A stretch of DNA of 37,029 bases, taken from positions 1-37,029 of the forward strand of contig JAUWYL010000011.1 of the NCBI GenBank assembly GCA_030615855.1. The letters are read 5' to 3'. Shown here piece by piece: positions 3,900 to 34,610 of the stretch. Every line of letters starts with the position of its first letter. Position 1 is the first letter of the stretch. The position numbers and the translations under genes are program-made. The stretch is from a bacterium (GTDB lineage Bacteria > UBP18 > UBA7526). The notes below the pieces were generated by a model. It saw nothing but the letters and a program-made list of their open reading frames with translations, ran no database searches and had not been told where the DNA came from.

Positions 3900-5207
3900 T
3901 TAGCGTTTTTGCGGCTCTGTGGTTGCAAAGACTTCCTTTCCTCTATAAATTGCTTTGGAACCCAGTTCCTCTTCGATACGCAATAGTTGATTATACTTGG
4001 CGATGCGCTCACTGCGAGAGCAACTTCCAGTCTTTATCTGCCCGGCATTGACCGCCACCGCCACATCGGAAATAATGGTATCCTCTGTCTCTCCACTCCT
4101 ATGCGAGATAATTGTAGTATATCCTGCTTTTTTTGCCATCTTTATGGTCTCTATGGTCTCAGTCAATGTTCCGATCTGGTTCAACTTTATGAGGATGGAG
4201 TTTGCTATTCCTTCTCCTATTCCTCTCCTTAACCTCTTGGGATTGGTAACAAATAGATCGTCTCCCACAATCTGGATCCTTTTGCCTAACTTAAGGGTCA
4301 TCTCCTTCCACCCTTTCCAGTCATCTTGAGCCAGTCCATCCTCAATAGAGAGAATAGGATATTTATCTACCCAATCCTTATAGAAATCGACCATCTCACT
4401 GGCGGATAGGTCTCTCTTCTCAGAGGCTAAAATATATTTCCCATCCCAATAGAACTCACTTGCTGCTGGATCCAGGGCAAGGGCAACTTCTTCTCCTTCT
4501 TTATATCCTGCCCTCTTAATCCCCTCTAAGACTACCTGGATAGCCTCTTCATTCGATCTTAAATCTGGAGCAAATCCCCCTTCATCGCCCACTGCGGTAG
4601 CATAGCCCTTCTCCTTCAAAACTTCTTTTAGATTATGAAAGACCTCTGCACCCATTCTCAAGGACTCCCTGAAGCTCTTCCCTAAAGGAACGATCATGAA
4701 CTCCTGGAGATCAACATTATTATCCGCATGCTTTCCCCCGTTTATGACATTCATCATGGGTACTGGTAATTGGTAATTGGTAATTGGTAATCGGTAATTT
4801 TTCCTAATGTATTGATACAAAGGCATTTTTAAAGAAAGAGCTCCTGCTTTGGCAACTGCTAAGGAGACCCCCAAGATGGCATTCGCTCCTAACCTTCCCT
4901 TATTCTCCGTTCCATCCAGATCGATCATCAATCTATCGATCTCTTCCTGCTTGGTAACATCCTTTCCTATAAGTTTGGGAGTAATCACTTCATTCACATT
5001 TTTAATTGCTTTCAATACCCCCTTTCCTAAGTATCTCTTCTCATCTCCGTCCCTCAGTTCCAACGCCTCATGCTCTCCAGTTGAGGCACCAGAAGGAACA
5101 GCCGCCCTTCCTAAAATCCCGTCCTCCAAGATAACATCCACCTCAACCGTTGGATTCCCCCTTGAATCCAGCATCTCACGCGCTTTAATCTTTACAATTT
5201 TAATCAT
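3900..5207 (-). CDS. eno: Enolase
   Basis: Glycolytic enzyme interconverting 2-phosphoglycerate and phosphoenolpyruvate. The 435-residue protein shows [17 protein letters not shown] at the N-terminus, the loop [17 protein letters not shown], the acid site GDEGGFAPD, Mg ligands in DDLFVTN and SIEDGL, the catalytic lysine in [10 protein letters not shown] and SHRSGETED near the end. ATG 5207 is preferred over 5219 because GGAGG lies 5 bases ahead and the start overlaps the upstream TPR stop as TGATG. Residues about 136-148 are encoded by a five-copy 7-bp tandem array inside the gene. An upstream glycerate kinase in the same run could feed it 2-phosphoglycerate. Confidence 0.97.
4764..4798 (-). 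repeat. 7-bp tandem array inside eno
   Basis: Five copies of TGGTAAT (plus strand; the last is CGGTAAT), 35 bases in total, read in frame as [12 protein letters not shown] just before the conserved LPVPMMN of enolase, at a loop that varies in length between species. Confidence 0.95.
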
Positions 5208-6148
5208 CATTGCCTCCATCTAGCCCATCGAGCAGGCCGGGTAGCGGGGTATTCCTTCAAGACTTTTTCGAATGCTTCATCTGCCAAATCATATCTCTCC
5301 AGGTCTTTATAGCACTCCCCTATACGATACTGAGCGAAGGAAGCCCGATGAGACTTGGAATATTTTTCTAATACTCTCTGGTATTCTTTAATTGCCTGCT
5401 TGTGGTTCTTTAATTCGAACTGATAGATCCAACCGATATAGTACTGAACAGAGGAAGCAAGATGGGACTTGGGGTAGCGAGATACTATTTCTCTACATAC
5501 CCCGATAGATTCCTGGTATCTACTTTCCTTCCATAATTTATATTCCAGGGTATAGAGTTTCAGGGGCACACCTTTATAATCATCCCCTTTAGTGACAGCA
5601 TCCACTTTTAATCCGGCATCGTAGTCTGCCCCACTTCTCGGATAGCGCTCGATAATCTCTCGATATTTGGCTAGCGCCTTCTTATAGTCTCCCTTATACT
5701 CATAACATTCCCCGATCCCTAATGAGGCGTCTGCCACCTGCCGGCTCTGGGGATACATATCGATGAGTCTCTGATACTCGTTGAAGGCCTTTTCATAATC
5801 ACCTAATCTATAGCCATAGATACGGGCAATTGCTAACTGTGCCCGAGGTGCTTCTTCGCTCTCCGGATAACTCTTAATTAATTTACGAAAAGCCTCTAGA
5901 GCCTGAGAAAAATCCTTTGCTTCCCTGTAGATCTCTCCGATTAGATATTGAAATTTGCTTGTCTCTTCAGGAAACTTCTTTATTGCCTTCTGGTAGAGGA
6001 TGATGGCCTTCTGATATTTCTCCTGCTTCTGGTAGATCTCTCCCAGGAACTTATACGCCCTGAGCTCTCTTTCTGCCCAGATAGGCGAGCTAACAAAGAA
6101 TAAGCATAACAGAATAGATATCCAAAACCCCCTCTTTACAAGAATCAC
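5207..6148 (-). CDS. Exported TPR-repeat protein (paralogue 3)
   Basis: 313 residues starting at GTG 6148, with AAAGGAG ahead of it inside the stop region of the previous gene. A signal peptide (about residues 1-25, ending PIWAE) is followed by tetratricopeptide repeats through to the end, in the YbgF/BamD-like style ([29 protein letters not shown]). TPR arrays are protein-protein scaffolds; partner and role cannot be read from the sequence. It is the last of three related genes in a row and shares the [15 protein letters not shown] block with its neighbour, so the set arose by tandem duplication. It is translationally coupled to eno. Confidence 0.85.
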
Positions 6149-6151
6149 AGT

Positions 6152-33427: not shown

Positions 33428-34021
33428 TCAATCGGCCAGGGTTACTTCTCTGCGGCATTTGGGACAGAGGAACTTTATCCTATCAGAGCGCTTGGGCAAC
33501 TTCTTCAAGCGACGAACCTCTTTCTCTGCCAGACCTAGTTCCTTATGGGAAACTAAAAGTAAGCCCAGATTGGCATAGGCCAACAGGCCCAATCTTCTTA
33601 CTACCCACTTAACATGATCTGTAGTGCCAATTATCGCTCCACAGTATTCACAGAGTAAGAGGTCCTTCTCTATAGAAGTCTTTGCTTTCGCTCTATCAAA
33701 AGTGGCCAGGTCATATTCCGGAGTGAGCCTTATTCCCTTCTCTGTAATGCAGTTTGTCTGACACTCTCCGCAGAAGATACATTTATCGTAGTATAGGATT
33801 ATGTTTCTCTTTCTTTTCTTTAGATCATCAAAGAGCTCCAGGGCATCTGAGGGGCAGACCTCAACACAGGCCCCACAGCCCACACATTCGGCTTCATCAA
33901 ACTCTGCCTTACCTCTATACTTAGGAGCGGGACTGGGAACTTTAGGAAACTTGGTAGTATAGGGACCTTTAAAAATGGCTTTAATCGCTTCTCTCAATTC
34001 TCTCAGTTTGGGATATCTCAT
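33428..34021 (-). CDS. Two-[4Fe-4S] ferredoxin subunit of a group 4 hydrogenase (HycF/MbhN/NuoI-like)
   Basis: 197 residues. CVGCGACVEVCP and CIFCGECQTNC bind two [4Fe-4S] clusters, in the spacing of the TYKY/NuoI/HycF subunit that links the electron donor to the small hydrogenase subunit. After it comes a segment with CEYCG and CPKC pairs (about residues 124-127 and 185-188), a zinc-ribbon-like tail. It stands 250 bases from mnhG and 4 bases before hycI, so it belongs to the same complex. Confidence 0.88.
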   Translation of the reverse strand: MRYPKLRELREAIKAIFKGPYTTKFPKVPSPAPKYRGKAEFDEAECVGCGACVEVCPSDALELFDDLKKRKRNIILYYDKCIFCGECQTNCITEKGIRLTPEYDLATFDRAKAKTSIEKDLLLCEYCGAIIGTTDHVKWVVRRLGLLAYANLGLLLVSHKELGLAEKEVRRLKKLPKRSDRIKFLCPKCRREVTLAD

Positions 34022-34271
34022 CTAAACCTCGCTTTGCACGGTTAGTTTACAGTTTACAGCAACGGGTTTACAGCAAAAAGAAGAAGAGTACCAGATTACC
34101 AGAATAGACGCCTAACAAGTTGGCTAGATTCTTCGCGATGCTCAGAATACAGATGGAGAAGGTCAGTTATCAGAGGGTCAGATTAAAAAAATTGAACCTG
34201 GTATTCTGAATTCTCATTCTGATGGTCTGATGTTCTGATAATCTATAGTTTCACTGGTTACTGTTCGCTGG
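34022..34271 (-). repeat. Repeat-word spacer between mnhG and the ferredoxin gene
   Basis: A 250-base gap without a gene. A 7-bp array TGGTTAC (34255-34282, second copy diverged) covers the mnhG stop; other parts show TTTACAG pairs near 34047-34060, CATCAG-like words near 34215-34240 and TACCAGATTACCAG near 34090. No terminator or promoter is clear. Confidence 0.65.
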
Positions 34272-34610
34272 TTACTGGTTACTTCTCTTATCTTCTTTAT
34301 ATCTATCTACCACGCTCTTCTTCCAGAGTTTAACCCCTGAGATGTGGGCTCCCCGAGCCAGAGCATGGGCAGATACCGGTGCTGTCAATACCAAAAAGAT
34401 AATACAGAATAAGGTTTTTATCCCGGCAGCAGTTATTCCGAGCATTAAGAAGGCTCCAAAGAGGATACTGCAGGTTCCGAAGGTAACACATTTAGTAGAG
34501 GCTTGAAGGCGATTATATACATCAGGAAGTCTTACTAATCCTAAACAACCAAAGAAATCAAAGACCAGTCCCACCACAATAAAAATCATTCCCATAATGT
34601 TATTCATCAA
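34272..34610 (-). CDS. mnhG: Mrp-type cation/proton antiporter subunit MnhG
   Basis: 112 residues with three membrane helices and the family core GCLGLVRLPDVYNRLQASTKCVTFG followed by FLVLTAPVSAHALARGAH. It overlaps mnhF by 11 bases. Its last residues (RSNQ) fall in a 7-bp tandem array. The second ATG codon is an alternative start. Confidence 0.93.
   Translation of the reverse strand: MMNNIMGMIFIVVGLVFDFFGCLGLVRLPDVYNRLQASTKCVTFGTCSILFGAFLMLGITAAGIKTLFCIIFLVLTAPVSAHALARGAHISGVKLWKKSVVDRYKEDKRSNQ

Follow-up and report, generated by a model that had tools for sequence, protein, structure and literature searches.

Tandem arrays of seven- and eight-base-pair units in genes and intergenic DNA of a UBP18 bacterium and its relatives

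Heptanucleotides are reported as the dominant long simple sequence repeats (SSRs) in many bacteria, and Mrazek, Guo and Shah (2007), as cited in PMC4692102 and PMC4679880, proposed a polymerase-sized slippage register to explain them. Among the closest described systems are the short tandemly repeated repetitive (STRR) sequences of cyanobacteria, with the GGGGA(C/T)T arrays of Nostoc, and the GGGNATC arrays of Xanthomonas, which are mostly intergenic, G-rich and built from one main unit type (PMC4692102). In the TAACTGA direct repeats of Beggiatoaceae, cyanobacteria and Bacteroidetes, one unit is dominant (PMC4679880). Here we describe tandem arrays with 7- and 8-bp units in a 37,029-nucleotide stretch of bacterial DNA, hereafter the window (GTDB lineage Bacteria; UBP18; UBA7526; assembly GCA_030615855.1, contig JAUWYL010000011.1, positions 1 to 37,029 of the forward strand), and in G000, the 1.375-Mb draft genome from which it derives. 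Two relatives of the same genus and three more of the family were compared, giving six family genomes, all of them draft metagenome-assembled genomes (MAGs) with 53-94% completeness.

These arrays are a real and strong version of a phenomenon known from heptamer-rich genomes such as those of Nostoc, Xanthomonas and Beggiatoaceae. The Rickettsia palindromic elements (RPEs) are short palindromic DNA tolerated in frame within coding genes, and in this they resemble our arrays; compared by description only, each RPE family is a single one of longer elements and has no tandem 7/8-bp structure. With the SSRs of Mrazek 2007, as cited in the two papers above, our arrays share tandem 7-mers as the dominant long class, whereas a strong period 8, a high density in housekeeping genes and concerted unit replacement at fixed sites set them apart from that account. 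With the Nostoc and Xanthomonas arrays they share many dispersed sites, a small set of recurrent units and their variants, a commonest size of about four units, inverted pairs (in Xanthomonas), and sequence and length variation among close species (PMC4692102). Unlike those arrays, they draw on 77 heptamer and 45 octamer units, few of which are G-quadruplex-like, and they are not mainly intergenic: 36 of the 62 long arrays of G000 (exact run of at least 14) lie within open reading frame (ORF) calls, a share that is approximate, the calls being mechanical. TAACTGA repeats are similarly heptamers located near genes; some are mixed with other heptamers, and on occasion they are translated, giving a 7-residue period (PMC4679880). 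They differ in the dominance of one unit, where our arrays have a broad vocabulary and often lie in frame within conserved enzymes. What appears to be new is the array density within genes together with concerted unit replacement at fixed sites; in the open-licence literature we found no earlier description of such density in housekeeping genes or of in-frame replacement of unit or period at fixed sites.

Genome-wide excess of periods 7 and 8

The excess of 7- and 8-bp arrays is real and extends across the genome. Within the window, 17 exact two-copy runs of period 7 were counted against 2.8 in order-2 Markov simulations, with six against 0.1 for runs of at least 10 and three against 0 for runs of at least 14. 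Over 607 kb of G000, runs of at least 10 numbered 80 at period 7 (0.5 simulated) and 29 at period 8 (2.5 simulated). When 976 kb were screened for runs of at least 12, 77 were found at period 7 and 31 at period 8, with at most three at each of periods 1-6 and 9-13, and the signal at period 14 is the double of 7. The resulting densities, 78.9 and 32 per Mb, compare with 0.7 and 2.2 per Mb in 78 named control loci, mostly from Firmicutes (1.34 Mb, similar G+C), which held a single period-7 run of at least 12. Neither these loci nor four unrelated genomes showed 7/8-bp peaks above background. The sister genome G002 peaks at both periods, as G000 does. An excess over Markov expectation is thus shared with the heptanucleotide SSR class, but enrichment is not restricted to period 7.

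An earlier sequence-only reading of the window had proposed that a process creates arrays of fixed period, and had suggested plotting unit length and copy number against shuffled sequence; the genome-wide excess supports that proposal. Tandem Repeats Finder (TRF) or exact runs located the arrays that the reading had named. One of them, GATCACC x2 at the end of pdxA, stands at chance level, because 2.8 two-copy heptamers are expected by chance in the window.

Arrays within genes and their turnover between relatives

The reading had also placed several arrays inside conserved enzymes, and this extends well beyond the window. At least 27 heptamer arrays and several octamer arrays lie in frame within ORFs, most of which encode conserved enzymes. 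The hosts include eno, ksgA, mfd, hypF, ahcY, purH (two arrays), asnB (two), thrC, trpE, trmD, fmt, folC, a pcrA-like helicase gene, ssnA (two), waaA and nnrD. Coding arrays are mostly 30-38 bp long, and are longer and more perfect than the intergenic ones, which mostly measure 16-20 bp. They occupy positions at which homologues show gaps and which therefore tolerate insertions and deletions; protein alignments continue through them and the ORFs remain intact. Relative to solved homologues, the net change in size is about +9 aa in HypF (3vth), +9 in AsnB, +5 in enolase (4a3r) and 0 in AhcY (7o5l). In confirmed genes the frame is kept in every orthologous array comparison between species, and no orthologous pair differs by a frame-breaking unit. 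Of the earlier expectation that copy number within genes must be either constrained or phase-variable, the first half holds, as length is held to frame, while phase variation does not appear between orthologues.

Between relatives, lengths differ by whole units, units change in concert and the frame is retained. Setting the 976 kb of G000 against 643 kb of G002, orthologous intergenic and ORF-edge arrays differ by -7, -8, -8, -16, +8, +8, +14 and -21 bp, at sites that are mostly intergenic and have a flank identity of 82-97%; a minority of differences are not unit multiples. The comparison of copy number that the sequence-only reading had suggested yields mostly whole-unit differences at intergenic sites, a feature shared with heptanucleotide SSRs.

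Whole units are also exchanged in place. In the same loop of eno and at equal length, the unit is TTACCAA in G000, TTAAGGG in G002, TTACGGG in G001 and TTACGGT in G003, and mismatches within arrays amount to 0.5 (G000) to 1.5, compared with 3.25 between the orthologous units of G000 and G002. In G004 (L072), the eno array is split by an in-frame insert of 51 bp, which amounts to a nested insertion at this loop. In ksgA, CAG has become CGG in all four octamers of G002 relative to G000, and the period itself switches at one site, with 8-mers in five genomes and 7-mers in G003; at L088, a 7-mer array faces an 8-mer array between orthologues. When the mfd array was read between the orthologues of G000 and G002, the loop in G002 was found to hold a different, longer insert of CGGAGTT-type heptads, and purH, lpxK, a radical-SAM gene and an rmlD-like gene carry different arrays at the same site in these two genomes. 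The ahcY array of G000 stands in place of an equally long non-repetitive stretch of G002, and a DegT-like gene has a 33-bp array and nine more codons in G002 and no array in G000. At L042:495, a related heptamer in G002 provides a visible local seed.

At L028:7488-7513 and L135, G000 and G002 show 100% identity across the array and its two flanks, compared with roughly 80-95% at other compared flanks; recent transfer or a binning mix-up is possible. The AGTTTAC array of the window is also identical in G002, with flanks 99-100% identical. Identity of the ksgA arrays between G000 and G005 was considered as evidence of transfer and is not compelling, since homogenised arrays have only about eight independent positions.

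Unit vocabulary, palindromic elements and features of the window

The sequence-only reading held that the unit differs at every site; in so small a window, each unit was met at one site. Across 976 kb, 161 heptamer arrays (run of at least 9) are built from 77 distinct heptamers, with ACTGGTT in 21 arrays, GCATTTT in 12, CGGAGTT in 9 and ACGGTTT in 7; among the 45 octamer units, AAAGTGAG occurs in eight arrays. The STRR pattern of a few units at many sites is thus present, beside many units, coding ones included, that occur in one array only. Coincidence of units among the 27 coding arrays reaches eight pairs against a null mean of 0.7 (maximum 7 in 1000 draws), and 14 of the 27 coding units also form intergenic arrays (null 0.8, maximum 4). 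The hypF unit TATGCGA, for instance, recurs in fmt in the opposite sense. Three exact copies of GGTTACT or of CGGTGAA were found in none of 284 other bacterial genomes and are confined to this family. Because units coincide beyond chance and these two are found only in the family, the vocabulary is shared and lineage-specific. The contrast drawn earlier with cyanobacterial STRRs, which reuse their units, largely dissolves, given that units are reused and dispersed here too.

Nor does the claim that the arrays are not one dispersed element survive intact, as several intergenic families are dispersed palindromic elements with heptad arms, and the TGGTTAC array of the window is one arm of such an element. 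The commonest unit, ACTGGTT, forms the end of a recurring palindromic element, approximately GTTTACAGTAACCAGCGAACAGTAACCAGT, a short T-rich spacer and ACTGTAAACTGTTCGCTGGTTACTGGTTACT, with arms of about four heptads plus three bases each. With up to seven mismatches allowed, 976 kb contain about 33 copies of its 31-bp arm, compared with 0 hits for a shuffled query. CGGAGTT arrays are found in recurring sequence contexts, and an identical 32-mer, CGGTGAACGGTGAACGGTGAACGGTGAACGGT, is present in ahcY, trpE and a radical-SAM gene. Of 76 intergenic heptamer arrays, 30 have an inverted copy nearby, against 8 of 76 in the control, whereas inverted partners of coding arrays are at background (5 of 67 against 3). 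Words such as CCGAGCGTAGCGAGG and CTCGCTTTGCTCGG recur beside intergenic arrays (for example at L009 and L036) and possibly represent another small dispersed repeat.

The arrays of the window are listed in Table 1. The two ksgA octamer arrays are mutually inverted and joined at a short palindrome; the nearby hairpin sits in an extra 18 bp missing from G005, and the other relatives lack 24 bp. The stop codon of mnhG falls within the array at its 3' end. The AAGTAAA array, at the very 5' end of the hpt ORF, is probably placed ahead of the true start, since the HGPRTase model begins at residue 29. HypF additionally carries a G+C-rich in-frame insert, NPAPLSGAGRGAKCPPKARSRPSRADGADK (window about 31811-31940, minus strand), which is missing in the solved homologue 3vth and resembles another kind of inserted element. 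A 13-bp tandem repeat in A+T-rich DNA, AAAATTAAATATC (3.3 copies, window 13474-13516), at the end of the 12553-13488 ORF falls outside the 7/8-bp class. An Rfam scan of the window returned two tRNAs only.

Table 1. Tandem arrays and associated features of the window (copies and percentages of arrays from TRF unless an exact run is given)
Feature	Position	Strand	Unit and remarks
eno heptamer array	4764-4799	-	TGGTAAT (coding unit TTACCAA), 5.1 copies, 93%; in frame, 11 residues encoded; enolase loop LPITNYQLP; enolase TIGR01060
ksgA octamer array	10986-11020	-	AACTGGGT (coding unit TTACCCAG), 4.4 copies; in frame
ksgA second octamer array	10952-10983	-	GCCAGTTT (coding unit AAACTGGC), 4.0 copies
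ksgA small perfect hairpin	10931-10947	-	ACCTGGC-GAA-GCCAGGT
mfd heptamer array	17111-17141	-	GATGGGT exact run (coding unit CACCCAT), 4.4 copies; in frame
hypF heptamer array	30966-30996	-	GCATATC exact run (coding unit TATGCGA), 4.4 copies; in frame
Intergenic heptamer array downstream of hypF	30070-30092	+	ACTATCG, 3.3 copies
Intergenic octamer array	30038-30068	+	TCCGTCAG, 3.9 copies; adjoins the ACTATCG array
mnhG 3'-end array	34253-34283	+	ACTGGTT/TGGTTAC, 4.4 copies, 75%; arm of dispersed heptad element ACTGGTTACTGTTCGCTGGTTACTGGTTACT
Short heptamer array	34044-34059	+	AGTTTAC, 2.3 copies
hpt 5'-end heptamer array	1487-1509	-	AAGTAAA, 3.3 copies
Heptamer array at end of 1715-3151 ORF	1717-1754	+	Recurrent unit ATTTTGC, 5.4 copies, 74%
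Degenerate intergenic heptamer arrays	13568-13620	+	TTTACAT and TTTTGAT types
GATCACC x2, end of pdxA	11479-11492	+	Alone not significant

Origin of the arrays

We favour, with moderate confidence, an origin through whole-unit slippage and within-array homogenisation of a lineage-specific 7/8-bp vocabulary, filtered by frame in genes. Replication slippage, suggested by the whole-unit length differences, would add and remove whole units, and homogenisation of the units within an array (concerted evolution), which the pattern shows, lets it swap its whole unit, even its period, without moving. New arrays may be drawn from the shared vocabulary, partly carried by the dispersed palindromic elements with their arms of about four heptads. 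Intergenic arrays would drift freely, and genic arrays would survive only at indel-tolerant positions, in stop-free orientations and with in-frame net lengths, so that in housekeeping enzymes they would appear as inserts of 10-12 residues whose peptide repeats every seven residues. None of the six family genomes yielded MutS domain V (PF00488) or MutL (PF01119), each of which was found in 11 of 14 control genomes. Six independent absences through draft gaps are unlikely, and canonical mismatch repair has apparently been lost family-wide, which probably lifts a brake on misaligned intermediates. We infer slippage as the motor, the role of the missing mismatch repair, the manner in which units would arrive at new sites and the reason for a period of 7-8 bp; for the last, the polymerase-register idea of Mrazek 2007, in the form in which later papers cite it, remains a candidate.

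Several points weigh against this explanation. Net inserts of 0, about +4, +5 and +9 aa do not cluster at the +7/+8 aa expected from three-unit slippage. Neither ahcY nor the DegT-like gene shows simple amplification of a local word, because the ahcY counterpart is non-repetitive and of equal length and the DegT-like counterpart is 9 aa shorter and has no such unit. The greater length and perfection of coding arrays are accounted for only partly. Moreover, mismatch repair of the E. coli type deals mainly with loops no longer than about 4 nt, so its loss alone would not select a period of 7-8. Two narrower candidates were rejected, namely a three-unit in-frame ratchet as the sole cause of four-copy coding arrays, with which the net inserts of 0, +5 and +9 aa disagree, and a flap-processing deficiency, given that all six family genomes have a Pol I-type 5'-3' exonuclease.

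A mobile palindromic element, resembling a miniature inverted-repeat transposable element (MITE), a repetitive extragenic palindromic (REP) sequence or an RPE, is possible but on the whole unlikely as the general explanation. Two heptad arms of about 31 bp would insert intergenically or in frame into loops, the arrays would be arms or remnants, and the periodicity would belong to the element and not to local slippage. Such an element accounts better than slippage and homogenisation for the arrival of a unit in a new gene. It agrees with the constant phase and flanking words of recurring ACTGGTT and CGGAGTT units, the 31-bp ACTGGTT arm, the inverted copies near intergenic arrays, the inverted ksgA pair, the 32-mer common to three genes, and the CGGAGTT-type insert of G002 mfd at a loop that holds a different array in G000. 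However, coding arrays have no excess of inverted partners, many coding units are confined to one array, and copy number shifts by single units. No target-site duplication was established, and the compared genomes offered no clean pair of empty and filled sites. Searches of the six family genomes found neither a Y1 or REP-associated tyrosine transposase (RAYT; Y1_Tnp) nor an RVT_1 reverse transcriptase, other transposases not having been searched for. A REP/RAYT system was rejected on the first of these absences, and telomerase- or retron-like synthesis on the second. A terminator role for the intergenic arrays was likewise set aside, as they show only a slight 3'-end excess and no excess between convergent genes.

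If slippage were purely local, with a 7-8 nt register intrinsic to the polymerase, as in the idea of Mrazek 2007, the recurrence of units would reflect nothing but slippage-prone words. Heptamers do lead the long SSRs of many bacteria (PMC4692102, PMC4679880), and the whole-unit differences and the local seed at L042:495 fit this mechanism. We nevertheless regard it as clearly unlikely, as unrelated genes and intergenic DNA share units far more often than chance would give, and ahcY and the DegT-like gene have no clear local source of their units. The absence of two units, as three exact copies, from 284 other genomes further indicates that the unit preference is not general. Also clearly unlikely is a dedicated array-writing activity, by which 7-8-nt words from a shared pool would be written as blocks of about four units and about 32 bp at new sites, genes included, overwriting sequence and repeatedly rewriting the loops of essential enzymes.

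Contingency loci, in which heptamer tracts would toggle expression by frameshift, are very improbable: seven is not a multiple of three and phase-variable heptamer tracts are known, as in Haemophilus hmw1A (PMC8262952), but the hosts here are housekeeping enzymes (eno, trmD, fmt, ahcY, ksgA) with only about 4-5 copies and no out-of-frame orthologous pair in confirmed genes. An assembly or binning artefact is scarcely credible even though all the genomes are draft MAGs; the arrays are not errors of assembly, which the sequence-only reading had named among the things that would overturn it, because independently assembled relatives carry arrays at the same sites and in the same frames, with ORFs intact and sometimes with identical arrays between unique flanks.

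Why the long SSRs of bacteria favour seven base pairs is a long-standing question for which few tractable systems have been available so far. Related genomes of this family display array birth, gain and loss of units, concerted replacement and change of period at the same sites, without detectable MutS or MutL, in coding and intergenic compartments that differ in frame constraint. They offer a natural test of the spread and turnover of such repeats where standard mismatch repair is missing, and they show a route by which conserved enzymes gain 10-12-residue inserts of arbitrary sequence with their frame intact.

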